Shown here in pieces: positions 4,561 through 22,415 of a stretch of DNA of 38,710 nt. The DNA is from a bacterium. Lineage in GTDB: Bacteria; Electryoneota; RPQS01. Where the stretch lies: NCBI GenBank assembly GCA_018812265.1, contig JAHJDG010000030.1, positions 1 through 38,710 of the forward strand, written 5' to 3'. The notes under the pieces are model-generated. The model was not told the DNA's origin, did no database searches, and saw only the letters and a program-made list of their open reading frames with translations. Within the stretch, counting starts at the first letter, position 1; each line of letters opens with the position of its first letter. A program made the position numbers and the translations under genes.

Positions 4561-6690
4561 TCATTCCATCTTACCCTTGCCGATGATGAGACGGTCGTAC
4601 AGCATCAGAATCACGGCGGTGAGCAAACCGAGACCGCCGAAGATGATCCACATGATGTCCGGTCGTCCCGCGTCGCGCGCCAGCGATCCGTAAAGCTCTC
4701 CGGAAAGCCGTCCGCCGAAGATATTACCCAATGCCACCGTCCAGAAGTAGAATCCCATGAACATCGCCACCTTCTGCTGCGGGGCGATCCGGCCTACGTA
4801 TTCCTGGCTCTTGGGCGATGCCGCCATCTCGCCGAATGCGAAGATCGCAATCGCCAAAGTGACCAGCCAGCCGGTGTAGGTCCAGGCGGCCATTCCGATT
4901 CCGATCGCTGAGATCACGATGCCGATGACCATAGCCGAGAGCGGGGGAATGAAACCGATCAGGAAGGACACCAGAACCTGAAAGATGACAATCGCTCCCG
5001 CGTCCACGTTGATGATGTACTCCGGATTTACCTGTCGGTACGCTTCGGCAAGCTGATGCGCCTCGCCGCGGAGATCGGCGGGCATGGCGAAGGCGATTCC
5101 ACCCAGCGCGTAGGAAAGCTTCGTTCCGTCAAGCTGACTTCGCTCATCGAAAGCCCAGTTGCCGAGTTTCAGCACCAGTGCCTCGGAAATTCGTCTCTCC
5201 TCGGCCGGCAGAGGTCTTGCGCCGCTGGGAGCTTGGGTTCCTCGAGCCGTTTTCACTTGACCGCTGACGAAGACTTCCATCTTTTTCAGGGCCGCATCAC
5301 GATCCTGTTCAGAGCGAAGCTCACGCACCAGCCCGTCTACCATCGTCTGATCCACAGCCAGCACCGAAACCGGCAGACGGTTCAGGTGCGCGATCAAGGT
5401 ATCGTTGGGAATGCGCACCTTGAAATGATAGAGCTCCCAGATCATCGGCTTCACCTCGGGAGCCGTCATCCTCACCCGTTGCGGTGAACGAGTAGCCGCC
5501 AAGTCGTTGTGCGGAATCGTATCGAGGTCCGCCAGATAGGAACCGTTCTTCAGCGCAGCGATCCGCTCGTCCATGCTCGACCGCGTGTCCGTCGCGAATA
5601 CTCCCAACTCATTGGCCAGGAGTTCCTCGTTCACGGCCGCGACCACTCGCGCGAAATCATCGCCGAACCATTTGCGCGCGGAGTTCACCATGTCCCGCGT
5701 GTCCACGAAATCCCGAATGAACTCGGGATGCGTCAGGAATATCTGATTGAATGAAGTCCAGAATCCCGAGAGAATCAACAGATACAAGGCGAACTTCCAG
5801 TTGCCCAGTTTCATCGGAGCGCGCAATCCCTTGGCCGCCTGGCCCGACCTCTTCTCGCGGGCCCGGAGCGGAATATCAAGCAGAAGATTCAGGATAATCC
5901 ACCCACCGGTGATGAGCGCCATGTCCGTCCACGAGATGTCCCGTCCGGAAATGGCCAGTAGCAGGAGGATACCGAATACCATGATGAAGAATCGGCCGTT
6001 CCCCAGCACTTGTACGATCCCGCCGAAGACTTGCCGCAAAGTCCGTTTCTGCCCGCTGGTAGCCTCGGTGGTCGGCTCTTTGTAGAACAGGAGCAGCCAA
6101 ATGAAATTGCAGGCAATCCAGAACGACGATGCGGCAAACACCCAATCCCAACCGTATCGTACCCGCACGAATCCCGCGACGACCGGGCCAACAAAACCGC
6201 CGACGTTCACCATCATGTAGAAGATTCCGAATCCCATCGAGGAATTCGTCTCGTCCGTCGTTCGCGCCACCGTTCCCACGACCACCGGCTTGAAGATGGC
6301 CGCCCCGATGGCTACGAACAGGAACGACATGAAGAACGTTCCGAAGGCGGTGAACTGCCCGAGCAGGTAGTAGCCGGGAACCAGCAGTGAGTAGGCGACG
6401 ATAAACGTCTTCTTGTACCCGAACCGATCACCGAGAGCGCCGAATACCACCGGCAATAGATAGAGGATAAACGGAATGACGCCCTGAAGAATGCCTCGCT
6501 GTTCGGAGGTGAATCCCAACGCGCCTTCGCTGACCGAGCCGGTTATATACAGCGATGACACGGCAAAGAAGCCGTACCAGGCCAGCCGCTCGAAGATCTC
6601 CATCGTATTGGCCACCCAGAAGCTCTGGGGGAACTTGGAGCGGGTTCGCTTCGTCGGTGCAGTAGACTGATCTGATTGAGGTGTGTGCAT
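4561..6690 (-). CDS. POT/PTR-family peptide transporter with large inserted loop domain
   Basis: This 709-residue polytopic membrane protein carries the POT signature E31-x-x-E-R-L-A-W-Y-G40 (ExxERFxYYG in the family), a FYMMVNVGGFVGP segment near 157-169, and NPEYIINV before TM8. Twelve core helices plus the two extra HA/HB helices of bacterial POTs (about 233-248 and 257-273) can be traced. POTs couple proton entry to uptake of di- and tripeptides. Unusually, a soluble stretch of about 230 residues (321-553) lies between TM7 (300-320) and TM8 (562-580), a loop predicted to face the periplasm; typical bacterial POTs are near 500 residues. AGGA lies about 10 bases before the ATG. The stop overlaps the upstream ATG of the aminopeptidase P gene. 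The exact substrate is inferred. Confidence 0.88.
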   Translation of the reverse strand: MHTPQSDQSTAPTKRTRSKFPQSFWVANTMEIFERLAWYGFFAVSSLYITGSVSEGALGFTSEQRGILQGVIPFILYLLPVVFGALGDRFGYKKTFIVAYSLLVPGYYLLGQFTAFGTFFMSFLFVAIGAAIFKPVVVGTVARTTDETNSSMGFGIFYMMVNVGGFVGPVVAGFVRVRYGWDWVFAASSFWIACNFIWLLLFYKEPTTEATSGQKRTLRQVFGGIVQVLGNGRFFIMVFGILLLLAISGRDISWTDMALITGGWIILNLLLDIPLRAREKRSGQAAKGLRAPMKLGNWKFALYLLILSGFWTSFNQIFLTHPEFIRDFVDTRDMVNSARKWFGDDFARVVAAVNEELLANELGVFATDTRSSMDERIAALKNGSYLADLDTIPHNDLAATRSPQRVRMTAPEVKPMIWELYHFKVRIPNDTLIAHLNRLPVSVLAVDQTMVDGLVRELRSEQDRDAALKKMEVFVSGQVKTARGTQAPSGARPLPAEERRISEALVLKLGNWAFDERSQLDGTKLSYALGGIAFAMPADLRGEAHQLAEAYRQVNPEYIINVDAGAIVIFQVLVSFLIGFIPPLSAMVIGIVISAIGIGMAAWTYTGWLVTLAIAIFAFGEMAASPKSQEYVGRIAPQQKVAMFMGFYFWTVALGNIFGGRLSGELYGSLARDAGRPDIMWIIFGGLGLLTAVILMLYDRLIIGKGKME

Positions 6691-6740
6691 GGAACGTTTT
6701 CCTGCAACTTATTAGGGAGAATTTATTGGTCGGGAAGGGG

Positions 6741-6780
6741 ACCAAGAACCCAAATATGCCTCGCGAGAGGCGTTCTTGGT
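6741..6780 (-). promoter_or_regulatory. Stem-loop in the probable 5' leader of the transporter operon
   Basis: Arms ACCAAGAAC (6741-6749) and GTTCTTGGT (6772-6780) are perfect complements. They stack on an inner 5-bp helix GCCTC/GAGGC (6758-6762, 6767-6771) with a four-base loop, leaving an 8-base bulge at 6750-6757. The element ends 51 bases before the transporter ATG. There is no U-run on either strand, so it is not an ordinary terminator. It could be an operator palindrome, an attenuator or an mRNA-stability structure. Function is inference. Confidence 0.45.
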
Positions 6781-6830
6781 GGAGAGATCAGGGAAAGTAC
6801 CTGTCGAGTGAGTTGCCTACTAATCGCAGA

Positions 6831-6859
6831 AATCTAACTCATTCTTTTACAAAACGCAA
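6831..6859 (-). promoter_or_regulatory. Weak sigma-70-like promoter candidate for the transporter operon
   Basis: On the minus strand TTGCGT (6859-6854) and TAGATT (6836-6831) are 17 bases apart. Match to consensus is partial (3/6 and 4/6). It would give a leader of about 130 bases that contains the stem-loop at 6741-6780. Confidence 0.25.
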
Positions 6860-7104
6860 GTCGAAACGAGAAGGGGTATGTCATGGGGTTGTGACGATGC
6901 GCCAGTGGTTGCTGTACATATGTGCAATCGGTTGTTCGATGAGCCTCACCATGCTTAAGTCGGATTTCGCATTAACTTGCTGATGCCAACGACCTGCCGA
7001 TTTGCTTGAATTTCCGTGTGTTGTTTTGTACCTTGAACTGATACATGAAACGCGGCGGACACTTTGGTTGTTTCGGCCAAAGTCCCATGACCTCATAGAA
7101 GGCG

Positions 7105-8454
7105 ATGATCTCACGATTCTATCGGCACATTGCACTGCCGATTGTTGACGCTTCGCGCCGAACGGACAGCCTAAGCGCGTTCCGCGAGCTGGACCGGACT
7201 CAGTGGCGTACGACTGAAGAGCTCCGGCAGATCCAGCTTGACAGGCTGCGCACACTCCTGATTCATGCGGCGAAGCAGGTACCCTACTACCGTGATCTAT
7301 TCCGGGAATGCGGATTCGATCCGTCGGCATTGCGCTGCGTCGAAGATCTTTCGGTGGTTCCGCTTCTCACGAAGGATATTATTCGCCGTGAGGCCTCACG
7401 TTTGGTCGCCGACAATGCACGGCGGTTCCAGCCTCGTCCGCATCGTTCCGCCGGCACTACCGGTCAGCCCATTGTCATTCAGATGGATCGTCGGCGTCAT
7501 TCGGTGGCGTGGGCAGACATGTATCGTTGGTGGAGTGCCGGAGGATGGAGACTTGGCGACCGCCAATTCGTCGTCGCCGGCGCCGCCCTGCACCCGCGGC
7601 AGATTTCCGGATTCAAGGCCCGGCTCTATTCTAAACTGAACCACTTCGTGGAATACACCTCCTTCGGCCTTTCCTGCGACTTGCTCGATCGGATACTGGA
7701 TCGCTTGGAAAAGGAGCGGCAACCAATCTTCCTACGCGGTTACGCATCCTCCATCTTCGAGCTGGCCCGTCGAGCCACTGATCGAAATTGGCAGGGCAGC
7801 GTGAAAGCAATCTTCACTACCGCCGAGACTCTTTTTCCCGAGCAACGTCGGCTCATCGAACGCGCGCTTAACGGACCGGTCTTCGATCAATGGGGCTGTC
7901 GAGACGGAGGAATCAGCGCCTTCGAGTGTGACCATCACCGGGGTCTTCATCTTGCCGTTGAGAACACGGTGGTCGAGATCTGCCGGAACGGTGCACCGTT
8001 GCCGCCTGGTGAATCCGGCGACGTCGTGGCCACGGATCTTTTCAGCTTCGCCATGCCTATCATCCGCTACGAAGTAGGCGATGTGGCCACGACGGCAACC
8101 GAACTCTGTCCCTGCGGCCGGGGTTTGCCTTTGATCGCATCCGTGCAAGGCCGCGTATCCGGATTCCTGATCGGTTCCAGAGGCCGCCGCATTCACGGCG
8201 AGTTCTTTTCCCACGTCTTCTGGGAAGCGTCGTGGGTGAAACACTTTCAGGTCGTTCAAGACGCTCTGGACGAAATTGTCGTCCGTATCGTTCTTAATCG
8301 CTCTCCCGAATCAGTCGAGGTGGAAGCGGCGTGCCGCATCATGCAGGAGCACGCCGGACCGGATTGCCGCATTCGCCTCGATTTTGTAGATGAAATTCCG
8401 CCCGGCCCTATGGGCAAACGCCAGTTCATTATATGCCGAATTCCGACCCCCTGA
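7105..8454 (+). CDS. AMP-forming adenylate ligase, phenylacetate-CoA ligase (PaaK/CapK) family
   Basis: The 449-residue protein has an early QVPYYRDLF segment typical of PaaK/CapK proteins. The ATP-binding motif SAGTTGQP lies at 115-122, FDQWGCRDGG in the middle, and MPIIRYEVGDVA (the adenylation-core hinge motif) near 315-327. The C-terminal small domain runs to the end. The family activates a carboxylate as an acyl-adenylate, usually on to CoA. In surface-polysaccharide loci such ligases (CapK-like) are found with unknown substrates. AAGG lies just before the ATG. The 3' end overlaps the DUF362 gene by 22 bases, so they are translationally coupled. The neighbouring glycosyltransferase and CapA-like gene suggest a role in envelope polymer synthesis rather than phenylacetate breakdown; no other paa genes are present. 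Confidence 0.87.
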   Translation: MISRFYRHIALPIVDASRRTDSLSAFRELDRTQWRTTEELRQIQLDRLRTLLIHAAKQVPYYRDLFRECGFDPSALRCVEDLSVVPLLTKDIIRREASRLVADNARRFQPRPHRSAGTTGQPIVIQMDRRRHSVAWADMYRWWSAGGWRLGDRQFVVAGAALHPRQISGFKARLYSKLNHFVEYTSFGLSCDLLDRILDRLEKERQPIFLRGYASSIFELARRATDRNWQGSVKAIFTTAETLFPEQRRLIERALNGPVFDQWGCRDGGISAFECDHHRGLHLAVENTVVEICRNGAPLPPGESGDVVATDLFSFAMPIIRYEVGDVATTATELCPCGRGLPLIASVQGRVSGFLIGSRGRRIHGEFFSHVFWEASWVKHFQVVQDALDEIVVRIVLNRSPESVEVEAACRIMQEHAGPDCRIRLDFVDEIPPGPMGKRQFIICRIPTP

Positions 8455-9986
8455 ACGGGCCCAGCCCCTCGCCCGACAAATCATCTGCGGTTGCGCTGTT
8501 TCATGATCCGCGGCTGACGTCGTATCCTTCTGAGCCGCCCTTTGATCCTGCGGATCTTTATCCCGAAAATCCCAGTCGTGGTTGTGTTGCCGCTGGGGCG
8601 AATCCTATTTATGCCTATGTGCGTCAGTTGCTGGCCGATTTGGGCTTGGATGCGAAAAACTTCGGATCCGGGCAATGGAATCCATTGTCTGATTTGGTCG
8701 CTCCCGGCGGCACCGTGGTCATCAAGCCCAATCTGGTGGATTTGAAACAAGGCTGGATTGCTCTCGGGGGCGAGCGGGTGCTCGATATGGTCACGAATGG
8801 ATCGGTGCTCCGGCCGCTTATTGACTACGCCTATCATGCGGTGGGACCGAATGGTCGTATTGTCGTCGGGGATGCACCTCTTGTTCATGCCGGTTTTGAT
8901 GCGATTGTCGAGGGGGCCGGAATCAAACCGATGATGGAAACGTTGTCGGCTCGCGGGATCGCCGTGGAACTGATGGACTTCCGCGAAGAATTTTTCGCGC
9001 GCTGGTCGGGCGAACGCTATGAGCTGCCGGGGGATCGTCTCGGGAATAGCGTTCTGGATATTGGAAACCGCAGCGCCCTCGATCCCCTCGATAGCGATCC
9101 GCCCGCGCACTACTTCACGCTCGCTGACCAGACCGTTCATCGCACCGAGCCTCAGCGACATCACTTTAAGGGCTGCCACGAGTACTGCATTCCCAACACG
9201 ATATTGGGATGTGATCTGTTCATCAACGTTCCAAAGCTCAAGACTCACGTCAAGACCGGCGTAACCCTTTCATTGAAAAACTTGATGGGGATCACGCACT
9301 ACCGCCGCTGGATGCCCCACCATCGAACCGGTGCGCCGCCCGAGGGGGATGAATTCCCCATGGATCCGGGAACGATCCTGCGTCATCGGGAACGGATTCT
9401 TCGTCGCGTCAGCAGACTACCCGGCGGTGAGTTGTTCATTCGCATGGCAGCCTACCTCCGCCACAGCACAGCGCGGCTCGTCGGGCACCGCGATCGAACG
9501 ATCATTCATGGCGGATGGTATGGAAATGACACCCTGTGGCGAACACTGGTTGATCTTAATCGAGTTCTCTTCTACGGCCGACCCGGTGGCCAATTCGTAC
9601 CGGAGCGCCGAAGCTATCTCTCGATCGTGGATGGCGTCATCGCCGGTGAAGGCAATGGGCCGGTGAAGCCTACGACCAAGCCCGTGGGCGTCCTCGCCGC
9701 CTCGATGGATCCCGTTGCGCTTGATACGGTTCTCGCGTGGATCATGGGCTACGAGCCGACCCGTATCCGATTGCTGCAGGGAGCGGCTGCTTCGCGGGAT
9801 ACCCTCTGGCTCGGACATACGGACTTCAACCGTATTGATGTGAAAACCAACATCGAGGATTGGCGTAGTCTCGATCTCGATTTCCGCGAGCCTTTGGGAT
9901 GGGAAGGTTATCTCAAACGCGGATCCGCGCTGACTCTCGAAATGCAGGAACGGCTCCGCTTCATGGGTCCGGCCGTGCTGCCGTAG
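8433..9986 (+). CDS. DUF362 domain-containing protein
   Basis: The 517-residue protein has the DUF362 hallmarks. GGTVVIKPNLVD surrounds K98-N100. NVPKLKTH (V266-H272) is followed by SLKNLMGITHYRRW. Near the C-terminus come DGVIAGEGNGP and SMDPVALDTVLAWIMGY. No ferredoxin-type CxxCxxC cluster is visible, unlike many DUF362 proteins that carry Fe-S domains; the only close cysteine pair is in GCHEYC. The biochemical role of DUF362 is not established in general. The start at 8433 overlaps the ligase gene, and the next gene begins one base after this stop, so the three form one operon. There is no signal peptide. A role in making or modifying a surface molecule is inferred only from context. Confidence 0.88.
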   Translation: MPNSDPLNGPSPSPDKSSAVALFHDPRLTSYPSEPPFDPADLYPENPSRGCVAAGANPIYAYVRQLLADLGLDAKNFGSGQWNPLSDLVAPGGTVVIKPNLVDLKQGWIALGGERVLDMVTNGSVLRPLIDYAYHAVGPNGRIVVGDAPLVHAGFDAIVEGAGIKPMMETLSARGIAVELMDFREEFFARWSGERYELPGDRLGNSVLDIGNRSALDPLDSDPPAHYFTLADQTVHRTEPQRHHFKGCHEYCIPNTILGCDLFINVPKLKTHVKTGVTLSLKNLMGITHYRRWMPHHRTGAPPEGDEFPMDPGTILRHRERILRRVSRLPGGELFIRMAAYLRHSTARLVGHRDRTIIHGGWYGNDTLWRTLVDLNRVLFYGRPGGQFVPERRSYLSIVDGVIAGEGNGPVKPTTKPVGVLAASMDPVALDTVLAWIMGYEPTRIRLLQGAAASRDTLWLGHTDFNRIDVKTNIEDWRSLDLDFREPLGWEGYLKRGSALTLEMQERLRFMGPAVLP

Positions 9987-9987
9987 G

Positions 9988-11124
9988 ATGTCCATGCCGA
10001 TGCGCGTCGTCATTACCACTACCCTGAACGCGAATCTCTTCCGCGCCAAGCTCGTGCCCCTCATCCGCGCGCGACCCGACGTCGAGGTTGTCGTCGTCAC
10101 GGATCGTGAGGGACCGGCGCTTGACCGTGTGCGCTGGATTTGGCCACGCGGGCTGTGGCGATGTTTCGGAAGACTCGGCGGGCGCTGGCTGCTGCTGCTG
10201 CGCGAGGTCATGGATCCCCGCACGAAGCTGGTCATGGCCTACAACGTGATCCCTCACGGATTCTTCGCCGTCACGACCGCCCGAATCCGCCGACTGCCGG
10301 TCTTCCTCCATCTGATTGCCGGTGCGGCGGATGTTCGCTTCGCGCATAACGTTAAGGTGGCCGACAATCGTCTCATCACCCGCACCCGGAATCCACGTCG
10401 GATCGAGAAACTTGCCGAATGGACAATCCGCCGCGCCGCCAAGCTCTGTGTTCCGGGCACCAACACGGAAAATTTCCTCCGCTCACTCGGATTTCCCGCC
10501 GAACGCATCGTCCGCCTTCACAGCACGATTGATCCCGAGGTTTTCCACGCACCGGGGGGCGGCGAACGCGATATTGATGTGCTCGTCTCCGCGCAACTTC
10601 GCGTGCGGAAACGTCCGGTTTTCACGCTCGAAGTCTTCCGTCGAATTCTCGACGCCCGCCCGAACACCCGCTTCTGCTGGCTCGGCGACGGCCCGATGCA
10701 AACCGAATTCGAGGAGGCTCTCGACCGTCTCGGCTTGCGCGACGCCGTCTTGTGGACCACGACCGACGGCGTGGCCGATTACTACCGCCGCGCCCGCATT
10801 TTCCTGCTGTGCTCCATGAATGAGGGACTCTCTTTGGCCTGCATGGAAGCGATGGCCTGCGGAATGGTTCCCATTACCACTGATTGCGGGGACATGGCCG
10901 AGATCGTTCGTCCCGGCCAAACCGGAGAACTGCTGTCCGTGGCCGCCTCATCAGAGGAGTTTTCCGAGGCTGTTCTTCGCTTGCTCGAGGACTCCGACCT
11001 CTGGCAGAATTTCTCCTCCTCATCTCAGGAACTGATCCGGAGTGAGCATAGCTATCCCTCTGCTATCGAGCACTGGCGGGCGCTGCTCGCTCCGTTTGCT
11101 GAAAAGGCCAAAGACCTTATCTGA
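9988..11124 (+). CDS. Glycosyltransferase, GT4 family (GT-B fold)
   Basis: This 378-residue protein has an N-terminal Rossmann-like half and a C-terminal Glycos_transf_1 half. The latter shows LVSAQLRVRKRP, the GDGP turn (233-236), and the donor-binding E-x7-E motif E279...E287 in NEGLSLACMEAMACG, followed by ITTDCGDMAEIV. GT4 enzymes transfer a sugar from a nucleotide-sugar with retention of configuration; donor and acceptor cannot be read from sequence. Three in-frame ATGs (9988, 9994, 10000) follow each other, and the third, giving MRVVITTTLN, could be the true start. It begins one base after the DUF362 stop and is the last gene of the tight three-gene run. The CapA-like gene follows after 200 bases with its own promoter candidate. 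Confidence 0.9.
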   Translation: MSMPMRVVITTTLNANLFRAKLVPLIRARPDVEVVVVTDREGPALDRVRWIWPRGLWRCFGRLGGRWLLLLREVMDPRTKLVMAYNVIPHGFFAVTTARIRRLPVFLHLIAGAADVRFAHNVKVADNRLITRTRNPRRIEKLAEWTIRRAAKLCVPGTNTENFLRSLGFPAERIVRLHSTIDPEVFHAPGGGERDIDVLVSAQLRVRKRPVFTLEVFRRILDARPNTRFCWLGDGPMQTEFEEALDRLGLRDAVLWTTTDGVADYYRRARIFLLCSMNEGLSLACMEAMACGMVPITTDCGDMAEIVRPGQTGELLSVAASSEEFSEAVLRLLEDSDLWQNFSSSSQELIRSEHSYPSAIEHWRALLAPFAEKAKDLI

Positions 11125-11272
11125 AGTAGCCGAAAGGCCGATATTCGCCGAACAGGGTCGTCTGCCGGAATTTGAATGATCGAAGGTAGTTACATGTCAC
11201 CGAAAACACACGAGATAGTACAATTATCGCCATTCATAATTATAAACCACCGTAATTCGTATACAGACCGAC

Positions 11273-11302
11273 TTGACTTCCCGGTCAATTTACCCCTACA
11301 TT
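11273..11302 (+). promoter_or_regulatory. Sigma-70-like promoter candidate for the CapA-like gene
   Basis: TTGACT (11273-11278) and TACATT (11297-11302) are 18 bases apart in an AT-rich part of the 200-base gap after the glycosyltransferase. The position is 35 bases before the ATG at 11337. No other candidate of this quality was seen in the gap. Confidence 0.5.
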
Positions 11303-11336
11303 AGGAATTAAGCATCCGAAGCCGGTGTGGCCGACC

Positions 11337-14288
11337 ATGAACTGCAAACGAGCTTCTCAAAAGATCGGTTTGACTCTACTGCTGGCGCTGACCGCGACCT
11401 GCGCCGTAGTCAACGCCGGTCCTCGCCGCCCGCCTCGTACTCCCGGTCTCGATGAGTGCGATTCCCTCTTTGCCGTAGTCATCCAGCCCGAGGGCGGTAC
11501 TGTGCGCTTGAGCTGGTACGATATGCCGGGTGTCAGCGAGTGGATCGTGTATCGCGGCACGCGGGCGGACATGTCCGACTGCGAAATCGCCGCGGTCGTT
11601 TCCGATACCTGCACGTGGCGGGAGTCCTCTACGGTTATATCCGAGAGGATTCGTCTTTTCTACTGGGTGGCGGCGCGCTGGTTTGGCGGCACGCCCGAAA
11701 ACTACTCGATCATTGCCGATTTCGAGGAACCGGTTGCGCTGCTGAGCTACTCCATGGATGAAGACCTTGAACCGAGTGCATGGCACCGCATCGTAGACGG
11801 CGGCTACAATCCGTACGGATACAGTCTCGAGCTCTACGGCAACACTTGGAAACGTCATCCGATTGACACGGTCTGGCTCGAGGCGGGAACCATCTGGCGA
11901 GTGGCGGCCAAGGCGGAGACAATCGGCGAGGGACAGGCGATTGGAATGGCCGACTCCGCCAATGAAATGTGGTACGGTTTGTGGGGTACTGAAGTCAGGC
12001 AGCTCGCGTCGTGGAACAACATCTATCAGGGGTGGGAGCCTGCCGGAACATGGGCGTATTTCGATTTGCCGGTGGGGGAAGACTGGATGGGCAGATTTGG
12101 CTACTATCCGGCCGTCACCACGCTCCTCTATGCCAATGATTCCGACAACCGACGGGGCGTTTTCCGGATTGACCAGATTCGCGATGTTACCGGCACCATC
12201 AGCCTTCCGCCCGATGCGCGTTTCCGCTGGCGCATCACCGGGTATCCGCATCCCGATACGATGGAGGTCGCTTTCTGCTCGATGGGTTGTGATCCCGAAG
12301 GTCCCCTCTATCGGCACTTCTGGTCCTTGGGTGATGGCACCTTCTCCACTCAAGCTCATCCGGTTCATCGCTTTCCCGCACGCGGAGTGTTTTCCGTGGC
12401 TCTCAGTATTCGCGATACATCCAACCGGGTGGACTGGATTGTACAGGAGGTGGCCGACACCGTTGCCGATGCCAGCCGCCGGATTACCGCGCTGTTCGGC
12501 GGAGACGTGATGATGGCCCGCCGCTATGAGGAAGCGGGAGGGATCATCCCTACTCGCGGCGTCAACGCCATTTTCGAGAATATCCGCCCGCTGGTCTCGT
12601 CCGTAGAACTTGCCATGTGCAATCTTGAGTGCCCGCTCACCAACGCGACCGAGCACCATCCCACCAAGATGTACTATTTCAAGGGTCGTCCCGAATACGT
12701 GGAAGGGCTAACGTTCGCGGGCTTCGACTACTGCGCGCTGGCCAACAATCACACCTATGATTATCTCGATTCGGGCATGTTCCAGACCATGCACGTGCTC
12801 GATTCGGTCGGACTCCTGCATTCCGGCTGCGGAGAGACCGACGGGATCGCCCGGCAGCCCGTCTTCTTCAGCCTGAATGGTCTGTCCGTTGCCATCGTAT
12901 CCTTCTGCAATCGCGACGGCTCGTGGGACAATGAACAACCCTTCCTCGGCGCTGGGCCGTCGCGTCCGGGCTTCGCCATGTGGAACCGGCCCAACATGGA
13001 GCAGGCCATTCCCGCGCTCCGCGATGAAGCCGACGTCGTGATCGTCCAGGTGCATTCGGGATTCGAATATGCCACTGAGCCTCCCTACCTCAGCCAACCG
13101 GACAACGACCGAGCCGAATGGGATGAAGTCATCTCAGCGGTGATTCCCGATACCAGCGACGTGGACCTTCGCCGCTACGCCATTGATCTGGGCGCGGACC
13201 TTGTGGTCAATCACCATCCGCATGTGATCCAGGGCTGCGAGTTCTACGACGGCAGGCTGATCGCGCATAGCATGGGCAACTTCGCTTTCGACCAGTACCT
13301 CTCCGAGACGTTCTTCACCATGGCAATCAAGACTCAGCTCGTCGGAGGCGTGGGAGCGACCGGATTCGTGATGCATCCGGTCTTCATTGACCGCTACATC
13401 CCCGGCCCCGCCCGCGGCGAATTGGGGGGAGCCATTATTGACTATGTGGCCGATCTTTCGCGTCCGATGAATACCTGGGTCATGCGCGCGCCCGAGGCTG
13501 ACACGGCGCGGATTATCCCGGCAGGCAATCGAGCCAGTTGTCAGAGGCAAGACTACGGAGCCGAACTACGATTGGAGAATCGAAGTGGATTGGCGATTTC
13601 CGCCCCGTTCCGATTGGAGGGAGGTGGCTATCTTACACGGATGTCTCTGGATAGCATGAACATGCAGTTCCGGGTGGGTCGGGAATTGTTGTGGTATGGC
13701 AACATGGAGGATGAGGGGGCTACCCCGTGGGACTTGAATAGCAACTTTGAACGGTATGATACGCAGCTTGTCTGCCGGGGTGAACGGAGCCTGCGCTTGA
13801 ACCGAGCCGGTGGGGGGAACAATAGCGTCAGCACAAATCTGCTCAATCGCTGGCCGTGGACGGCTGGCTCTTACACCATGTCCGGCTTTGCGAGGGGTGA
13901 AAATACACGTGAGGTAAGACTTGAAGTTCGCTTCTGGAACCAGCGGACGGGCGGGGTTTTAGTGAATACGCAACTGATTGGCGAAGAGCTCAGCGGATTG
14001 TTTTTTTGGAAGCAGTCGTGGGACGACGTCGTCCGACCGGAGGGGGGCTGGTACTACGATGTCCGGGTCAACTTGCGATCCCCTGCGTCCGGCGAGGGAT
14101 TCGCCTGGTTCGATGATTTGGCCTTGATTCGGTGGGAGGATTGGCAATCGGGGATGGCTGAACTTCCCTTTCCCAATAATCTGACCTACGTTCAGGTACG
14201 TGGGCCGGAAGACTCCGAAAGTGCCCCGATCTCCTACCGCAGGGAATGGTACTATCCGATTGACATCGGAGGCGGTAGTCCGGATTAG
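11337..14288 (+). CDS. Secreted CapA-like metallophosphatase with PKD and jelly-roll modules
   Basis: ATG 11337 gives MNCKRASQKIGLTLLLALTA, a clear signal peptide; a GTG at 11325 is also in frame but less likely. The 983-residue protein has these modules in order: fibronectin-III-like (about 40-120), jelly-roll like a carbohydrate-binding module (125-285), PKD (about 300-370, WSLGDGTFS), and a CapA/metallophosphatase core (385-690). The core has GGD (D390), CNLECPL, ALANNHTYDY, QVHSGFE and VVNHHPHVIQG, then HSMGNFAFDQ. A second jelly-roll (about 770-945, ending WFDDLALI) follows. CapA belongs to poly-gamma-glutamate export/attachment systems, but CapB and CapC are absent here, so the substrate is open. 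No YPNPFNP tail is present. It may act on the polymer made by the upstream operon. Confidence 0.85.
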   Translation: MNCKRASQKIGLTLLLALTATCAVVNAGPRRPPRTPGLDECDSLFAVVIQPEGGTVRLSWYDMPGVSEWIVYRGTRADMSDCEIAAVVSDTCTWRESSTVISERIRLFYWVAARWFGGTPENYSIIADFEEPVALLSYSMDEDLEPSAWHRIVDGGYNPYGYSLELYGNTWKRHPIDTVWLEAGTIWRVAAKAETIGEGQAIGMADSANEMWYGLWGTEVRQLASWNNIYQGWEPAGTWAYFDLPVGEDWMGRFGYYPAVTTLLYANDSDNRRGVFRIDQIRDVTGTISLPPDARFRWRITGYPHPDTMEVAFCSMGCDPEGPLYRHFWSLGDGTFSTQAHPVHRFPARGVFSVALSIRDTSNRVDWIVQEVADTVADASRRITALFGGDVMMARRYEEAGGIIPTRGVNAIFENIRPLVSSVELAMCNLECPLTNATEHHPTKMYYFKGRPEYVEGLTFAGFDYCALANNHTYDYLDSGMFQTMHVLDSVGLLHSGCGETDGIARQPVFFSLNGLSVAIVSFCNRDGSWDNEQPFLGAGPSRPGFAMWNRPNMEQAIPALRDEADVVIVQVHSGFEYATEPPYLSQPDNDRAEWDEVISAVIPDTSDVDLRRYAIDLGADLVVNHHPHVIQGCEFYDGRLIAHSMGNFAFDQYLSETFFTMAIKTQLVGGVGATGFVMHPVFIDRYIPGPARGELGGAIIDYVADLSRPMNTWVMRAPEADTARIIPAGNRASCQRQDYGAELRLENRSGLAISAPFRLEGGGYLTRMSLDSMNMQFRVGRELLWYGNMEDEGATPWDLNSNFERYDTQLVCRGERSLRLNRAGGGNNSVSTNLLNRWPWTAGSYTMSGFARGENTREVRLEVRFWNQRTGGVLVNTQLIGEELSGLFFWKQSWDDVVRPEGGWYYDVRVNLRSPASGEGFAWFDDLALIRWEDWQSGMAELPFPNNLTYVQVRGPEDSESAPISYRREWYYPIDIGGGSPD

Positions 14289-14307: not shown

Positions 14308-14859
14308 TCATGGTTTTCGGAAGAGAAAAGCCGACAGTCCCGTAAGTGAAGCACTGCCAATCAGGGCGGCCAGAAGTACGGTCCACCAGATACCCTCTTG
14401 GCCGCCGCTTTCTTCCATCGCGGCTGCTCGGGCCGGCTTGGCCAGAACAAGGTACTGCCGGCCGCTGGTCTTGACCCGATATACCAGAGCATGATTCTTC
14501 CCGCTATCCGCAGTAGACTCCACAAATAGCGACTTTCCCGGCTCAAGCAGTTTGATGGCCTCCGCCTGCGGCCTGAATTCCGAAACCATCGCCACTACTT
14601 CCCCCGCGCTTTGCCGCAGTCGAATCGTTGTCCCGAGGGCTTTCTCCCACTCACCGGGTATGGCCGGCTGTCCGAAGGAGGGCGGAATGCGGCTCAGACA
14701 GAAGTACTCGATCAGCCGCACTTCCCGGAGCAGCCACTCTTGAGCCATGCTTCCCCCCCCCGCACTTTCAGACGGATGCGCGAAGTGAATGCCCGTCAGA
14801 AGCGAAGCCACACCCACCACCACGAACGAGACCAAAAAGACCACTACAAGTCGTTTCAT
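14308..14859 (-). CDS. Small membrane protein of unknown function, two terminal helices
   Basis: This 183-residue protein is not recognised. It starts MKRLVVVFLVSFVVVGVASL, an uncleaved helix or signal peptide, and ends with a second hydrophobic helix (about 157-178) and FLFRKP. The approximately 130 residues between are polar and probably periplasmic. They contain EWEKALGTTIRLRQSAGEVV and a short beta-rich stretch ending YRVKTSGRQYLVLAKPA. It converges on the CapA-like gene with only 19 bases between stops and is divergent from the gamma-carbonic-anhydrase-like gene. The codon usage and GC-rich third positions match the neighbours, which supports a real gene. Confidence 0.65.
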   Translation of the reverse strand: MKRLVVVFLVSFVVVGVASLLTGIHFAHPSESAGGGSMAQEWLLREVRLIEYFCLSRIPPSFGQPAIPGEWEKALGTTIRLRQSAGEVVAMVSEFRPQAEAIKLLEPGKSLFVESTADSGKNHALVYRVKTSGRQYLVLAKPARAAAMEESGGQEGIWWTVLLAALIGSASLTGLSAFLFRKP

Positions 14860-15863: not shown

Positions 15864-15946
15864 GTATATTGTGGGGGCAGAGATTTTGCACGATTCCGCT
15901 GGCTGTACGGCTGATTACGATTTGACGTTGACGCTTGGCAACACCG

Positions 15947-18900
15947 ATGAACCTCTTCCCGCGATTCATTCCTTTGATACTCCTGCTGGTCACGCTTTCC
16001 GGACGGGCCGCCACCGTCGTCGTGGACTCGGCGGGACCGTTCCGCGCGCAAGTTGAACTGATCTCGCAAGAGCCCCACGATCTGGTCATCGAGCTGCGGA
16101 TCGGTTCCGTGCAGGTGGACTCGCTCCAGGTTGCCGGACGGTTGTGGACGGCAATTTCGATCGCGGGCATGGGTCTCGCTTCGGAAAGTGGTATGCCCGA
16201 GCTGCCTCAGCACTCCCTATGGCTGCGAGTGGCTTCCACCGAGCCTGAGCTCAGCATCATCGAAGACCAGACCGCGCGTTTCGAGTGGGCGGCGATTCAA
16301 CCGGCACCGGAAGTAATGAATCGTCTGCCCGAAGTCGAGATCCGCCGGATTCCCGATCCCGCTGCATATCGTGCTACAACTGTCTATCCCGAGTCTCCGG
16401 TGACCGTCACCGTGCGGGGTGACGTGGGCAAGAGTCGCGTCGCGCTGCTCACGTTCCATCCGGTTCAGTACCGCGCGCGCACTCAAGACTATGTCGTGCA
16501 TACTCGGCTCCGGGTTCGTTTGTCCGGTCGAGAGCGAGGTTCGCTCGATCAATCGGTTGGTGTTCCCCGCGCCACCCGAGATTTGCTCGCGAGGCTGGTG
16601 CTGAATCCCGCTCCCGACGAAACCACCGACGTTCCGGTCTCGCCGCGCCTGCTGATCTTCACCGAGCCGCAGTTTGTTTCCGCGCTTCAGCCGTTTGTCG
16701 AGTGGAAACGACGCTCGGGGCTGCCGGTGCGAACCGTCATCTACTCGGAGGTCGCGTCCGGCGCAGCTTCACTCCAAGCCTTCATCCGCCGCTTCGCCGA
16801 CAGTCTCGATACTCCTCCGGAATTTGTTCTCATCGTCGGAGACGTGGACGTCATCCCTCCGTTCTACGGTGTGGCCGGCAGTCTGACCGATCATCCCTAC
16901 AGTCTACTCACCAACACCGACTACCTGCCCGATCTCTCCGTCGGCCGGATTCCCTGTCAGAACGTGCAAGGCTGTTCGGACTGGGTACAGCGGGTGCTGA
17001 GCTACGAACGTGATGCCGTCACGGCGAGTCACACCGGATCTGTCTTTGCCAGTGCTCATGCTCTCGATCCGCAACACGGAATATATGTTCGCTCTCTCTT
17101 CGAACGTCGCGGCATGACAGTGGATCGCCTCCAGCAGCCCGAGAGCAGCGCACTCTCCCTATTGCTCGGCTCGCTGAACGCGGGCCGCCAATGGGTGTTC
17201 TACATCGGTCACGGCTACTCGCAAGCGTGGTCGTCCGTGCAACCATATTTCACCAACACCTCGGTCGGCCAAGTGACGGCGGAGAGCACTCCGATTGTGA
17301 TTTCGGTCGCCTGCGAGACCGCCGACCTCGATTACCCCGGAATGTCCATTGCCGAGTACTGGCTAGCCCGGCAAGGCCATCGCGGGCCGTTGGCCTATTT
17401 CGGCGCAACCGAGAGCACCGCCTTCTTCCGCTCCGACACCATCGGCATCGGAGCGCTCCGCGCGATCTTCGAGAGCGGATGCGATCGCCTCGGAATCGCT
17501 GCCGATCTCGGCCGCTTCGAGTGCGTTCAGTGTTTCCCGCAAGCTCCGGGCGGGCTGACGGAGGAGACCGTTCAGCAGTTCATCCTGCTGGGCGATCCGT
17601 CGCTGCGAGTGTTCACGGCTCAGCCGCTCGCGCTGAATGTCCTCTTTCCCTCGGTCGTGCATGCCAGCGAAGACGGATTCACCGTTTCGGTATCGCAGGA
17701 CAATCGTCCGCTTCGCAACGCAACGGTCTGCGTCTCGGGCGACTCGACGAGCTTCTATCGGGTGCTGCAAACCGACGTCAATGGTATGGTCCGATGCTCG
17801 AATCTGCCGACCGATCCCTGCCGGCTGCGCGTCGTCGTGACGGCGGCGAACAGCGTACCGTATCAAGGAAGTATCACGGTGGTTTCCGGATCTGCCCCCT
17901 TCCTCAGCGTAGTTGGTCTTCGCGTGTTCGATGAGGCGGGCGATGACGACGGTCACGCCGACCGTTCGGAATCGTGCGAACTCCGAATCTCGGTTGTCAA
18001 TCGCGGCCGGACTCCTTCCCAGTCTGGAACCGCGGACATCCTGCCGCCCCAGTGCCTTGATTTCTCGACGCTCAGTCTCGCTCTGCCCGTCGTAGCGGGC
18101 GGTGACACGGTGAATCTCGATCCCGTATCCGTGACGGTATGCGACTCGGCCAGTGATCAGAGCGTAGCCATGATTCGGATTCGATTCCGGCAGCTTGGCG
18201 ACACGACCGAGGATGTTGTGCCGCTCACCCTCCACGCGCCGCTGATGGAGTACCGGGGTAGAGAGGTGGAGGTGGACACGGCGGAAAGCGGCGAGCTTGT
18301 GCTGTCCACGGATTTGCGCTTCACAAATAGCGGCAGCGACCGCGCCGTTGCTCTCTCCTGTTCGTTGCTTTCTCTGCCGTCGGAGATTCAATTCGTGCGA
18401 ATGGAACCTCCGGTAGCGATTGCCATGCCCGGTGACACAATGGAGTTCACCGCGCTGCTCTCGGCAGCGAGCACTCTGCCGCGCGGCTTTCCGCTCTCCT
18501 TCGGTTATCGGATTTCCGGCACCAACGTTCCCGCGCAGACCGGCAGTGACGTACTGCGAGTCGGTCAGGTGCCCGTCTATCTGTATGAGGTAGACTTGAT
18601 TCCGCAGCAAGTGGACGGAGTGGCGGCGGCTCTGACTTCCCTCGGCATCGAGTTCGAGCGAGGGGACGTGTTGCCTCAAGACCTCTTCCGCTTTACTTCG
18701 GTGTGGGTGTTCTGCGGCACTTGTCCCAACGCCTGGCCACTGCCTTCGGTGGATGCTTCGCGATTGGCCGGGTACTTGGACGGCGGGGGGCAATGCTATC
18801 TCGAGGGCGGCGACTTCTGGGCCTATGACACACCGACGAGCTTGCATCCCTACTTCCGCATCAACGGCCTGAGCGATGGTTCTTCGAATGCGGGACCCGT

Positions 18901-20290
18901 CGTCGGGCGGGAGAGTACCCTCTGTCGGGGGATGCGCTTCGAATACGTCGGAGAAAACAACTTCATTGACCAGCTTGCGCCGGGCGATGGGGCGGAGGTG
19001 TGGCTGCGAAATAATCGAACCGGAGCCGGCTACGCGGTGTGCATTGCCTATGATGGCGGTAGCTACCGAACCGTCGGCAGCTCCATTGAACTCGGCGCGC
19101 TTGCCGATTCTCTCTTTCCATCCACAAGAGTGAATCTCTTTCATGCGATCGCCCAGTGGTTCGGAATCGTGAGTCGCACCGATGTTTTCCCGCCCGTGAT
19201 CGAACATACTCCCGTGACCGTATACACCCGGCCGAATTTCCCGATCCCCATCGGGGCGGATATTCAGGATGCCAGCGGAGTCGCGAGCGCCGAGATCGAG
19301 TATCGTCGCAATGGCGGAGCGTCGCAAACTGCGCTCATGTCCCTTCAGGATGGCGTGTACACGGGAGAACTCGCCGGAGCGCCTTTCGGATTCGTAATCA
19401 GCTATCGAATCCGGGCCACCGACGCCAGCACAAATGCCAATACAACCGCCACTGCCGAATACTCGCTGCGAATCGTGGCGCGACCGAATCTGTGTCTTCA
19501 CACACAGTTCAACACCTCGCATCGTGTGCAGCTCATTCCCCGCGTGCAGGCGGGCGAGGGCTGCTCGTGGTCGGTGACGAACTATCCCGAAGACGTCCCC
19601 GTTCTGGAACTCCACGGCCGGAGAGGAAACGCGATCTCCTACACGACAGAAGCCTTCGATTGCTCAAGCCTGCAATCGGTCCAGCTTGCCTTCGGGCATT
19701 ATCTCCGCGAAGCGACTCCGGCCGAGGGAACTCTGGCCCGTGTCCTCGGAAGCACCGACGGAGGAGTCACCTTCCCCTACACGGCTTGGGAAAAGGAGCA
19801 ACGGGGAGGAGGAGTTCTCCTCGAAGGAAACACCGTCATTTCCGAACTGGCATGGGCGGCCGGACAGTCGAACGTCGTACTCAAGTTCGAGTATTTGGGA
19901 AACTGGTACTGGCGTCTCCGTGACATCATCGTCGCCGGCACCACGGTTCCCATCTTCGCGCCCATCCGCGACCTGACCATATCTCCTGCGCCGCCCGGAG
20001 TGCTGCTTTTATGGGGCGCGGTGCCGGGAGTCGTTCGTTACGACGTCCTCGGCACAATAGGCGAGCGCCGTGATTCCGGATGGGAAGTGATTGCCCGAAC
20101 GAATGACACTCTATTCCACGATGTTGATATCCCCTTTACGGTCAGGTACTATACCGTACGGGGAGTCATCGAGGAGAGCATCCCACCTCCCGGCTGGGCG
20201 ATCCCGTTGAATCCGGTTCTGGGAAACGGTCAGTTGCGGATGCCGGACCTGATCTGGAATCGCAAGCTCGGAGCCGTAAATCCAAGATGA
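15947..20290 (+). CDS. Large secreted gingipain-like cysteine peptidase (family C25)
   Basis: ATG 15947 gives MNLFPRFIPLILLLVTLSGR, a signal peptide; an in-frame TTG at 15935 is unlikely. The 1447-residue protein has a C25 propeptide-like region (to about 210). The catalytic domain follows (about 225-560), with H422 in FYIGHGYS and C456 in ISVACETADLD. The His-Cys spacing of 34 is close to the 33 of gingipain R. A C25_C/Ig-like module (about 565-645) is next, then CARDB-like Ig modules (to about 875). A flavodoxin/glutamine-amidotransferase-like domain (about 880-1080, YLDGGGQCYLEGGDFW) follows, then an Ig domain, a jelly-roll (about 1185-1340) and a final fibronectin-III. It lacks the YPNPFNP sorting tail of its neighbour. 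The family cleaves after Arg or Lys; specificity here is unknown. Confidence 0.88.
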   Translation: MNLFPRFIPLILLLVTLSGRAATVVVDSAGPFRAQVELISQEPHDLVIELRIGSVQVDSLQVAGRLWTAISIAGMGLASESGMPELPQHSLWLRVASTEPELSIIEDQTARFEWAAIQPAPEVMNRLPEVEIRRIPDPAAYRATTVYPESPVTVTVRGDVGKSRVALLTFHPVQYRARTQDYVVHTRLRVRLSGRERGSLDQSVGVPRATRDLLARLVLNPAPDETTDVPVSPRLLIFTEPQFVSALQPFVEWKRRSGLPVRTVIYSEVASGAASLQAFIRRFADSLDTPPEFVLIVGDVDVIPPFYGVAGSLTDHPYSLLTNTDYLPDLSVGRIPCQNVQGCSDWVQRVLSYERDAVTASHTGSVFASAHALDPQHGIYVRSLFERRGMTVDRLQQPESSALSLLLGSLNAGRQWVFYIGHGYSQAWSSVQPYFTNTSVGQVTAESTPIVISVACETADLDYPGMSIAEYWLARQGHRGPLAYFGATESTAFFRSDTIGIGALRAIFESGCDRLGIAADLGRFECVQCFPQAPGGLTEETVQQFILLGDPSLRVFTAQPLALNVLFPSVVHASEDGFTVSVSQDNRPLRNATVCVSGDSTSFYRVLQTDVNGMVRCSNLPTDPCRLRVVVTAANSVPYQGSITVVSGSAPFLSVVGLRVFDEAGDDDGHADRSESCELRISVVNRGRTPSQSGTADILPPQCLDFSTLSLALPVVAGGDTVNLDPVSVTVCDSASDQSVAMIRIRFRQLGDTTEDVVPLTLHAPLMEYRGREVEVDTAESGELVLSTDLRFTNSGSDRAVALSCSLLSLPSEIQFVRMEPPVAIAMPGDTMEFTALLSAASTLPRGFPLSFGYRISGTNVPAQTGSDVLRVGQVPVYLYEVDLIPQQVDGVAAALTSLGIEFERGDVLPQDLFRFTSVWVFCGTCPNAWPLPSVDASRLAGYLDGGGQCYLEGGDFWAYDTPTSLHPYFRINGLSDGSSNAGPVVGRESTLCRGMRFEYVGENNFIDQLAPGDGAEVWLRNNRTGAGYAVCIAYDGGSYRTVGSSIELGALADSLFPSTRVNLFHAIAQWFGIVSRTDVFPPVIEHTPVTVYTRPNFPIPIGADIQDASGVASAEIEYRRNGGASQTALMSLQDGVYTGELAGAPFGFVISYRIRATDASTNANTTATAEYSLRIVARPNLCLHTQFNTSHRVQLIPRVQAGEGCSWSVTNYPEDVPVLELHGRRGNAISYTTEAFDCSSLQSVQLAFGHYLREATPAEGTLARVLGSTDGGVTFPYTAWEKEQRGGGVLLEGNTVISELAWAAGQSNVVLKFEYLGNWYWRLRDIIVAGTTVPIFAPIRDLTISPAPPGVLLLWGAVPGVVRYDVLGTIGERRDSGWEVIARTNDTLFHDVDIPFTVRYYTVRGVIEESIPPPGWAIPLNPVLGNGQLRMPDLIWNRKLGAVNPR

Positions 20291-20320
20291 AGGAACATAC
20301 GCGCGGATGAGTATCACCTG

Positions 20321-20349
20321 GGCTGCCTCTGCGGCAGCCTATTTATATG
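20321..20349 (+). terminator. Hairpin after the C25 peptidase gene, probable terminator
   Basis: GGCTGCC (20321-20327) pairs perfectly with GGCAGCC (20333-20339) across a 5-base loop and is followed by the AT-rich TATTTATAT. It lies 30 bases after the C25 stop. The U-run is interrupted, so strength is uncertain. Confidence 0.45.
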
Positions 20350-20364
20350 GGTAGAAAACATCAC

Positions 20365-20393
20365 TTGATTGTTGACCGGAACATTCGTATAGT
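20365..20393 (+). promoter_or_regulatory. Sigma-70-like promoter candidate for the secreted M1 peptidase
   Basis: TTGATT (20365-20370) and TATAGT (20388-20393) are exactly 17 bases apart, in an AT-rich stretch between the hairpin at 20321 and the ATG at 20433. Confidence 0.5.
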
Positions 20394-20432
20394 ATTTATT
20401 CAATAGACCCAGTGTAATGAGAATGTAACCAC

Positions 20433-22415
20433 ATGAAAAACATACTATTCCTCTTGATCGCCGCCGGGACGCTTTACGCCGCCCCGCGCTGGCCAAATAC
20501 ATGGGATACTACCTATCCGCCCATCCCACATTCGGAGCGGTCGCGCTTACCGTCCGCACTCGACGAGGATCCGTTCCATTTTTACGATGCCCTGAAATAC
20601 GAGTGTCACCTCAGTCTCGATTTCGCGAATACGGAGATTTCCGGTTTCGTGATTCTGCAGATCGTCGCCGACGAACAAGCCCTGAATTGCATTGATCTTC
20701 GCTTCACCCAATCGCTGACCATTGATTCCGTCCGGACGGACCGCGACGACGTTACCGCCACCCATACGACCGATGGCTTGGACAGCCTGCAAATCCTGCT
20801 GGTTCCTATGCTGTCCTTCGGCGATACGGTTGCTATCGGAATCGCCTATCACGGAAATCCGGCTTCCATAGACGGTTGGGGGGGATTCCGGTGGGCACAA
20901 CTGGCCGGTTGGCGCCCGCAAATTGCCTTCAGTATGGGAGACGGCTTCGCACTCGACCCACCGCCTTCCAACTACAACTGGCTTCCGTCCTATGCCGATC
21001 CCACCGACAAGGTGCTGTGGGAGGCGTGGTTCCGCGTTCCCCAGAACCGGGTCGTTTCCTCCGGCGGCCTGCGCATAGACACTACTCATCACGGAGACGG
21101 CACGGTTTCGTGGCACTATCGGCTCGATCAACCCGTATCCACGTATCTCCTGTTCGTGGCCGCTTCCGACTATGTCATCATGACCCAGCGCGAGTCCGGT
21201 CCGCTGATCGAGAATTTCGTGTATCCCAGCCGTCAGTCCGTGGCGGAGACTCACTTCTCCAATGTCCCGGCCGTGCTGGACGGTTTCGTCGAACTCTTCG
21301 GCCCCTATCCGTTCGAGCGCTTCGGTTTCTGTATGACTCGACTGGGCGATATGGAGCACGCCACCTGCGTAGCCCATGATGATCGTGTCGTGGTGAGTAA
21401 CCATACCTACGACTGGCTGCTCTTTCACGAGCTATCTCATCAATGGTGGGGAGACTGGGTGACCTGTGGCGATTGGCGGGATCTCTGGATCAATGAGGGC
21501 TTCGGCACTTACTGCGAAGCTCTGGCGATGGAGATTCTCTATGGCCGGCAGTCCTATAACGAGTATGTGGTGCAGAATATCTTCGCGCCGGCGCTGTCCA
21601 CGCCCGAATCTTTTCCCATCTACGATCCGGATTACTATTGGGGCGAGACGGTTTATGAGAAAGGCGCGAGTGTCATGCACATGCTCCGCTGCCTGCTCGG
21701 AGATTCCGCGTTCTTCGCGGCTTGGCGCGAATTCGGGCAGGAACATGCGTTCGGCAATGCCGTCACCGCCGATTGGCAGGCCAAACTCGAAGAACACTAC
21801 GGGGATAGCCTCGGTTGGTTCTTCCAACCGTGGGTGTACGGCGTGCTTTATCCTCAATATCGGGTCACGCTTGACCTCGGTGATGTTGCGTATCTCCACG
21901 TTGAGCAGGTACAAGGAACCGGCACCTACTTTCGTATGCCCATAGATCTGCGCGTGATCGGAGTGGAAGGCGATACTTGTGATGTTACCGTTTGGAATGA
22001 CGCGACCGCGGAGCAAACCTGGTGCCTGCATGACTTACCGGGTGTTGAAGTCTGGCCGGCTTCCGTGCAGATTGACCTCGAGAACAAGATACTGAAGACG
22101 GTGACGTATCATATCTTGGGTGTACCGGAAGTGGAAGACGTTGCCCGGCCTCAGGCGTTCAGAATTACATCCGTCTATCCAAATCCGTTTAATCCGCTGG
22201 CCGAGATTCTCTTTAATCTGCCTTCGACTTCAGCCGTTCACCTGCGGGTCTTCAATATCGCTGGTCAGGAAATTGCTACACGGGAGCTTGGCCGCTTGGC
22301 TGCCGGCTCTCATCGAGTAAACTGGGATGGATCCAACGCGGCCTCCGGGCCGTATCTGTTCTCGCTCGAAACTCCCCGGGAAACCCGAATCGCCAAGGCG
22401 ATTCTTCTGAAATAG
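20433..22415 (+). CDS. Secreted M1 family metallopeptidase with C-terminal sorting tail
   Basis: The 660-residue protein begins MKNILFLLIAAGTLYAAPRW, a signal peptide. The catalytic domain has zinc site HELSH (H332, E333, H336) and third ligand E355 in WINEGF. The substrate-binding motif is the variant GDMEH instead of GAMEN, and the catalytic tyrosine lies in VYEKG. From residue 574 a C-terminal module begins, with YPNPFNP at 582-588, NIAGQEI, a VNWDGSNAASGPYLF segment, and the end ...KAILLK. This matches the FlgD-like/type IX secretion (T9SS) type A sorting domains, so the enzyme is probably exported and surface-attached or released. It follows the C25 peptidase on the same strand but has its own promoter candidate. 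It is expected to trim N-terminal residues of extracellular peptides. Confidence 0.92.
   Translation: MKNILFLLIAAGTLYAAPRWPNTWDTTYPPIPHSERSRLPSALDEDPFHFYDALKYECHLSLDFANTEISGFVILQIVADEQALNCIDLRFTQSLTIDSVRTDRDDVTATHTTDGLDSLQILLVPMLSFGDTVAIGIAYHGNPASIDGWGGFRWAQLAGWRPQIAFSMGDGFALDPPPSNYNWLPSYADPTDKVLWEAWFRVPQNRVVSSGGLRIDTTHHGDGTVSWHYRLDQPVSTYLLFVAASDYVIMTQRESGPLIENFVYPSRQSVAETHFSNVPAVLDGFVELFGPYPFERFGFCMTRLGDMEHATCVAHDDRVVVSNHTYDWLLFHELSHQWWGDWVTCGDWRDLWINEGFGTYCEALAMEILYGRQSYNEYVVQNIFAPALSTPESFPIYDPDYYWGETVYEKGASVMHMLRCLLGDSAFFAAWREFGQEHAFGNAVTADWQAKLEEHYGDSLGWFFQPWVYGVLYPQYRVTLDLGDVAYLHVEQVQGTGTYFRMPIDLRVIGVEGDTCDVTVWNDATAEQTWCLHDLPGVEVWPASVQIDLENKILKTVTYHILGVPEVEDVARPQAFRITSVYPNPFNPLAEILFNLPSTSAVHLRVFNIAGQEIATRELGRLAAGSHRVNWDGSNAASGPYLFSLETPRETRIAKAILLK

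Follow-up and report, generated by a model that had tools for sequence, protein, structure and literature searches.

A conserved ligase-DUF362 gene pair of surface-polysaccharide loci: a possible carboxylate-tailoring module with a LarA-like component

The locus analysed here raises the question of whether four neighbouring genes, encoding an adenylate-forming ligase, a DUF362 protein, a glycosyltransferase and a CapA-like protein, work together. They lie in the window (the whole stretch of DNA analysed, 38,710 nucleotides), on contig C30 of a genome, G000, that comprises 3.5 Mb in 235 contigs and is 97% complete. The initial annotation had read them as one possible undescribed envelope polymer system, in which an acid is activated, transferred to a glycan and exported or attached. 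The four open reading frames are as it described them, all on the plus strand and at the positions in Table 1, with an overlap of 22 bases between the ligase and DUF362 genes (8433-8454; the overlap is 4 bases in the relatives G003 and G011) and a one-base gap (9987) between the DUF362 and GT4 genes; a further 200 bases separate the GT4 gene from that for CapA. The identities assigned to the four proteins likewise held in Pfam and NCBIfam scans and through PDB relatives of PaaK, with the PGA_cap/CapA assignment, together with a PKD domain, reaching E 1e-58. Only one glycosyltransferase gene stands beside the ligase-DUF362 pair in the window, and no sugar-nucleotide or export gene adjoins it, which speaks against the glycan-tailoring role proposed below. 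A promoter scan gave nothing above chance, terminator-like sites numbered 8 against 4.8 expected, and an Rfam scan found a single tRNA and no further family.

Table 1. Positions of the four genes and of the variable slot within the window.
Feature	Position	Strand	Basis
PaaK-like (ANL) adenylate-forming ligase, module gene 1, 449 aa	7105..8454	+	motifs, PaaK fold
DUF362 protein, LarA-like fold, module gene 2, 517 aa	8433..9986	+	PF04015, invariant residues
GT4 glycosyltransferase, 378 aa; family-wide, partner of CapA in relatives and not of ligase-DUF362	9988..11124	+	
CapA-like secreted protein, 987 aa, PGA_cap and PKD domains; independent of the module	11325..14288	+	
Variable slot, MFS transporter flank on the left, CapA flank on the right	6691..11324	.	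other genomes compared

The ligase has no Pfam match, and its matches to PaaK-type NCBIfam models all fall far below their cut-offs; PaaK relatives in the PDB match it at E 1e-29. An A3-type GTTG motif (residues ~117-120), RYxxGD (321-326) and G437-K438 near the C-terminus are kept across 25 aligned ligase sequences, with Lys438 invariant. The structure model (pLDDT 89) has the PaaK fold, with a Foldseek E of 1e-29 to PDB 4r1m. Its adenylation motifs, C-terminal catalytic lysine and fold place the protein among the PaaK-type ANL enzymes. With the ligases of this type (PaaK1/PaaK2; BT_0428, PDB 4r1m) it shares all three of these features and a CxCGR segment, but its identity to them is only ~23%, its score is far under the PaaK equivalog cut-off, and its linkage is to DUF362 and glycan genes, not to a paa pathway.

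The second protein matches PF04015 with 105 bits against a gathering score of 24 (E 7e-30) and is thus a member of the DUF362 family, whose motif KxKTHxxxGxTxxLKN it conserves. An alignment of its subfamily has Lys98, Asn100, Asp147, His244, Lys268, Lys270, His272, Lys282, Asn283 and His296 invariant, as is a WYGNDTLWR block (residues 362-370, Trp362 to Arg370) that is specific to this subfamily. Lys270, His272, Lys282, Gly286, Pro410 and Asp431 are kept in 28/28 other DUF362 proteins, and Lys98, Asn100, Asn283 and His297 in nearly all of the 28.

The ligase and DUF362 genes form a conserved module, their adjacency being far above chance. Scanning the DUF362 protein against 84,980 species genomes gave 44 loci, from Lachnospiraceae, Planctomycetes, Elusimicrobia, Acidobacteria, Bacteroidetes, Patescibacteria and others; with the window's own order left out, the external set comprises 42. 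Of these 42 external loci, 26 have a PaaK-like ligase gene within 10 kb of the DUF362 gene, without exception on the same strand; 20 of the 42 have it adjacent or at most 800 bases away. As a control we took 40 UDP-sugar-dehydrogenase loci from genomes carrying this type of DUF362. Among those without DUF362 a ligase was present in 1/34 (P 3e-8 against the external set), and among those without DUF362 but with glycosyltransferases in 1/15 (P 2e-4); six of the 40 do contain DUF362, five of them with a ligase, some of the six overlapping loci already counted. A second, separate sample of 291 genomes yielded a further 11 DUF362 loci whose flanks could be read, all outside the order; seven of these loci have a ligase adjacent or one gene away on the same strand. 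Four genomes of the window's order have this DUF362 (G000, G002, G003 and G011), each with the ligase directly upstream. Pairwise distances between the ligases and between the DUF362 proteins are also correlated in a mirror-tree comparison (r 0.83, 0/5000 permutations; 0.81 without the window's own order), although part of this correlation can stem from the shared ancestry of the genomes.

Most of the loci are glycosyltransferase-rich surface-polysaccharide clusters. GT4 or GT2 genes occur in 38 of the 42 external loci, and other genes found at DUF362 loci encode UDP-sugar dehydrogenases, epimerases, AsnB/asparagine synthase, heparinase II/III and TupA-like ATP-grasp proteins; next to the pair in G002 and G011 are genes for a UDP-sugar dehydrogenase and a GT4. 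This conserved linkage within such loci (26/42 against 1/34, with glycosyltransferases in 38/42) is what a surface-polysaccharide tailoring module would be expected to show. The proposed envelope polymer role thus survives in part: genomic context assigns the pair to surface-glycan biosynthesis, but not to a single four-gene system.

TupA-like genes occur in 9 of the 16 external DUF362 loci without a ligase and in 0 of the 26 with one (P 3e-5), and in 0 of the 34 control loci, an exclusion that is partly a clade effect, the TupA loci being mostly from Clostridia. In the Campylobacter capsule, glucuronic acid is amidated at its C6 carboxylate by a TupA-like domain (PMC11800379). This amidoligase (the C-terminal domain of Cj1438 of Campylobacter jejuni) likewise activates a carboxylate within a glycan locus, but it is an ATP-grasp enzyme, unrelated to the ANL ligase of the window. 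The TupA exclusion, the amidation of glucuronate by a TupA-like domain, and the replacement of the pair by an AsnB gene in one relative (G006, described below) make carboxylate activation a common theme.

A GNAT acyltransferase gene is present in seven external loci, typically between the DUF362 and ligase genes, and also in locus L204. The order DUF362-GNAT-ligase recurs in L040, L042, L049, L050, L054, L066, L073 and L204, several of these loci continuing with a 341-residue protein that has no Pfam match. As a subtype of the module, this arrangement suggests acyl transfer.

The pair probably alters an acidic group of a surface polysaccharide. The reading that we prefer, and to which we give an even chance of being right, is that it constitutes a portable tailoring module for a surface glycan, consisting of a carboxylate-adenylating enzyme and a LarA-fold, cofactor-free protein, and independent of CapA. 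The ligase substrate, the reaction order and the DUF362 reaction that we infer are as follows. With ATP, the ligase would adenylate a carboxylic acid: a hexuronic acid at its C6 carboxylate, or else a small acid that is to be joined to a sugar. This carboxylate, or the acyl group once activated, would be the target of the DUF362 protein, which would transfer it to a sugar or alter the alpha carbon, in a reaction cleft expected to hold His272, Lys282 and His297. Since its gene lies directly downstream of the module in a variable slot, the GT4 enzyme, long a neighbour of CapA, may use the tailored glycan or lengthen it.

The main rival is a route through CoA and a GNAT acyltransferase. Here a small hydroxy or amino acid, made or isomerised beforehand by the DUF362 protein, would be turned by the ligase into its CoA thioester, which would serve to N- or O-acylate a sugar. 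The DUF362-GNAT-ligase order of the seven external loci and L204 fits this route equally; the folds closest to the ligase are those of CoA ligases, including 2-hydroxyisobutyryl-CoA ligase; and relatives of LarA act on 2-hydroxy acids (PMC11770544). However, no acyltransferase gene lies beside the pair in the window, G002, G003 or G011, and DUF362 is also found without the ligase, in company with ATP-grasp or AsnB genes. On this evidence we consider the CoA route unlikely, though well worth keeping in mind.

In predicted fold the DUF362 protein resembles the LarA racemases. Its structure model (pLDDT 87, pTM 0.90) gave LarA chains as the only PDB matches at E <= 0.001 in a Foldseek search, with low TM-scores of 0.2-0.3; sequence searches of the PDB, with the single DUF362 sequence or a profile, returned nothing useful. 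His272, Lys282 and His297 align with the second catalytic histidine, the cofactor lysine and the nickel-ligand histidine of LarA (residue roles from PMC12611868), in weak alignments with hhalign probabilities of 3% and 29%. The LarA nickel-pincer 2-hydroxy-acid racemases belong to the same Pfam clan (CL0471, PMC11770544) and share the predicted fold and apparently a His/Lys/His set at comparable spacing. Unlike LarA systems, the window's genome has no detectable LarC or LarE, the DUF362 protein adds the WYGNDTLWR block, and its partner is an adenylating ligase.

The fold matches and the aligned site residues would also suit a nickel-pincer-dependent 2-hydroxy-acid racemase feeding the ligase, as would the presence of LarC in 21 of 32 DUF362 carriers outside the order and in 9 of the 11 genomes of the second sample. 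Such an enzyme is nonetheless improbable. LarC and LarE were not detected above cut-off in G000, G002, G003 or G011, three of these four being 96-97% complete; LarC is absent from 15 of 36 carriers overall, and LarE above cut-off was found in 0/12 LarC-negative carriers searched. With both LarC and LarE missing from G000, nickel-pincer dependence is disfavoured there, and the DUF362 protein probably works without that cofactor, as judged from gene content. Carriers elsewhere may use it, given LarC in 9/11 of the second sample. Two Lar_N (LarA-type) proteins are encoded in G011 (loci L114 and L120), yet LarC and LarE went undetected in that genome too; in this group it may be common for LarA-fold proteins to exist where the nickel-pincer pathway is missing.

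The GT4 and CapA genes are a separate pair, apart from the ligase and DUF362. GT4 relatives occur in 13/13 genomes of the window's order and CapA relatives in 12/13, and the two genes are adjacent in G000, G001, G004, G006 and G009, the last four of which have GT4-CapA without ligase and DUF362. One of them, G001, which is 91% complete and of the window's genus, yielded neither a DUF362 nor a ligase match. Ahead of the GT4 gene in G004 come a GT2/GT4 fusion and a WecG-type transferase. Conversely, each of the three relatives with the ligase-DUF362 pair (G002, G003 and G011) has its CapA on a different contig from the pair. Their closeness and common direction in the window agree with the idea that the four genes make up a single undescribed system for an envelope polymer, exported or attached by way of CapA. 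But CapA is unlinked from the pair in relatives and GT4-CapA occurs alone, so that the proposal fails the linkage test which the initial annotation had itself set; we reject the four-gene linkage and hold such a system to be decidedly improbable. Since the link between CapA and the pair is not conserved, export or attachment by CapA forms no part of the module.

The position occupied by the pair is itself variable. Flanks of this slot are conserved in G006, G008 and G009. One consists of an M1 peptidase gene (at 915 in the window), an M24 peptidase and the MFS transporter; the other comprises CapA and a C25 peptidase, joined in G006 and G008 by an M1 peptidase. Between the flanks stand ligase, DUF362 and GT4 in the window, an AsnB-type amidotransferase and GT4 in G006, GT4 without ligase, DUF362 or AsnB in G009, and none of these four in G008; a phosphorylase-family gene is also in the slot of G006 and G008. 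Because the contents differ in this way between conserved flanks, the pair has the look of a cassette that can be inserted. The protein in the G006 slot is similar to the AsnB-type amidotransferase of XrtA/PEP-CTERM exopolysaccharide systems (TIGR03108), similarly placed beside GT4, but scores 479 bits against a cut-off of 817; the window itself has no such gene.

Several genes around the slot deserve mention in their own right. The POT/MFS transporter (4561-6690, minus strand, 709 residues) appears on sequence inspection to have a long hydrophilic insertion between membrane segments. A 183-residue protein (14308-14859, minus strand) without a Pfam match is kept at the same place in G001, G002 and G009. 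At 15935-22415 (plus strand) a C25 gingipain-type peptidase precedes an M1-type peptidase whose Por-type C-terminal sorting domain suggests type IX secretion. A 912-residue protein (28943-31681, minus strand), also without a Pfam match, is conserved in G002 (764 bits), with the same genes around it.

The window CapA shares its PGA_cap domain with CapA/PgsA of poly-gamma-glutamate capsules; unlike these, it is a protein of 987 residues with extra domains. A CapBCA capsule locus has capB and capC beside capA, and no such arrangement was found here. The absence of CapB and CapC that the initial annotation remarked on is true locally, but not genome-wide: contig C101 of G000 carries a CapC gene and an adjacent Mur-ligase-type CapB candidate, the window CapA being on C30. 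This C101 locus (L184) has three unassigned genes downstream, an HTH_25 protein gene upstream and no CapA alongside, and may be an operon akin to those for poly-gamma-glutamate, from a group that is uncultured.

A substrate other than a glycan, namely a lipid or a secreted small molecule, might be imagined for the pair, as PaaK-type enzymes occur in secondary metabolism too (AjiA1, NatL2 and ClxA are among the structural relatives of the ligase), but most loci hold glycan-synthesis genes and the scanned neighbours include no carrier-protein, polyketide or peptide-synthetase gene, so that we find it very improbable. That the ligase is a catabolic phenylacetate-CoA ligase present here by chance, an identity that would have undone the original proposal, is barely credible in spite of its PaaK-like sequence and fold, and is rejected on its score (87.5 bits against a cut-off of 646 for the PaaK equivalog TIGR02155) and gene context, the window having no paa pathway and the ligase-DUF362 linkage being conserved in polysaccharide loci.

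Among open-licence papers we found none joining DUF362 with a ligase, glycosyltransferase, polysaccharide or capsule, and no functional description of PaaK-like, CapK, coenzyme F390 synthetase or exosortase-associated ligases in polysaccharide loci. The earlier suggestion of an undescribed system accordingly stands for the ligase-DUF362 pair, within that literature. Rather more tentatively than for the module as a whole, and at clearly less than an even chance, we propose that this DUF362 protein has the LarA fold with its His/Lys/His site kept, dispenses with the nickel-pincer cofactor, and with the ligase carries out previously undescribed carboxyl chemistry on surface glycans across many phyla. 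DUF362 is a widespread family to which none of the papers that we found assigns a reaction. A linked, co-varying partner of known general chemistry (acid adenylation) and a defined setting offer a concrete assay for it, and loci of the pair type include some from gut bacteria that can be cultured, for instance Schaedlerella and Hungatella. If our proposal is true, the module would show what the LarA fold does without the nickel cofactor.
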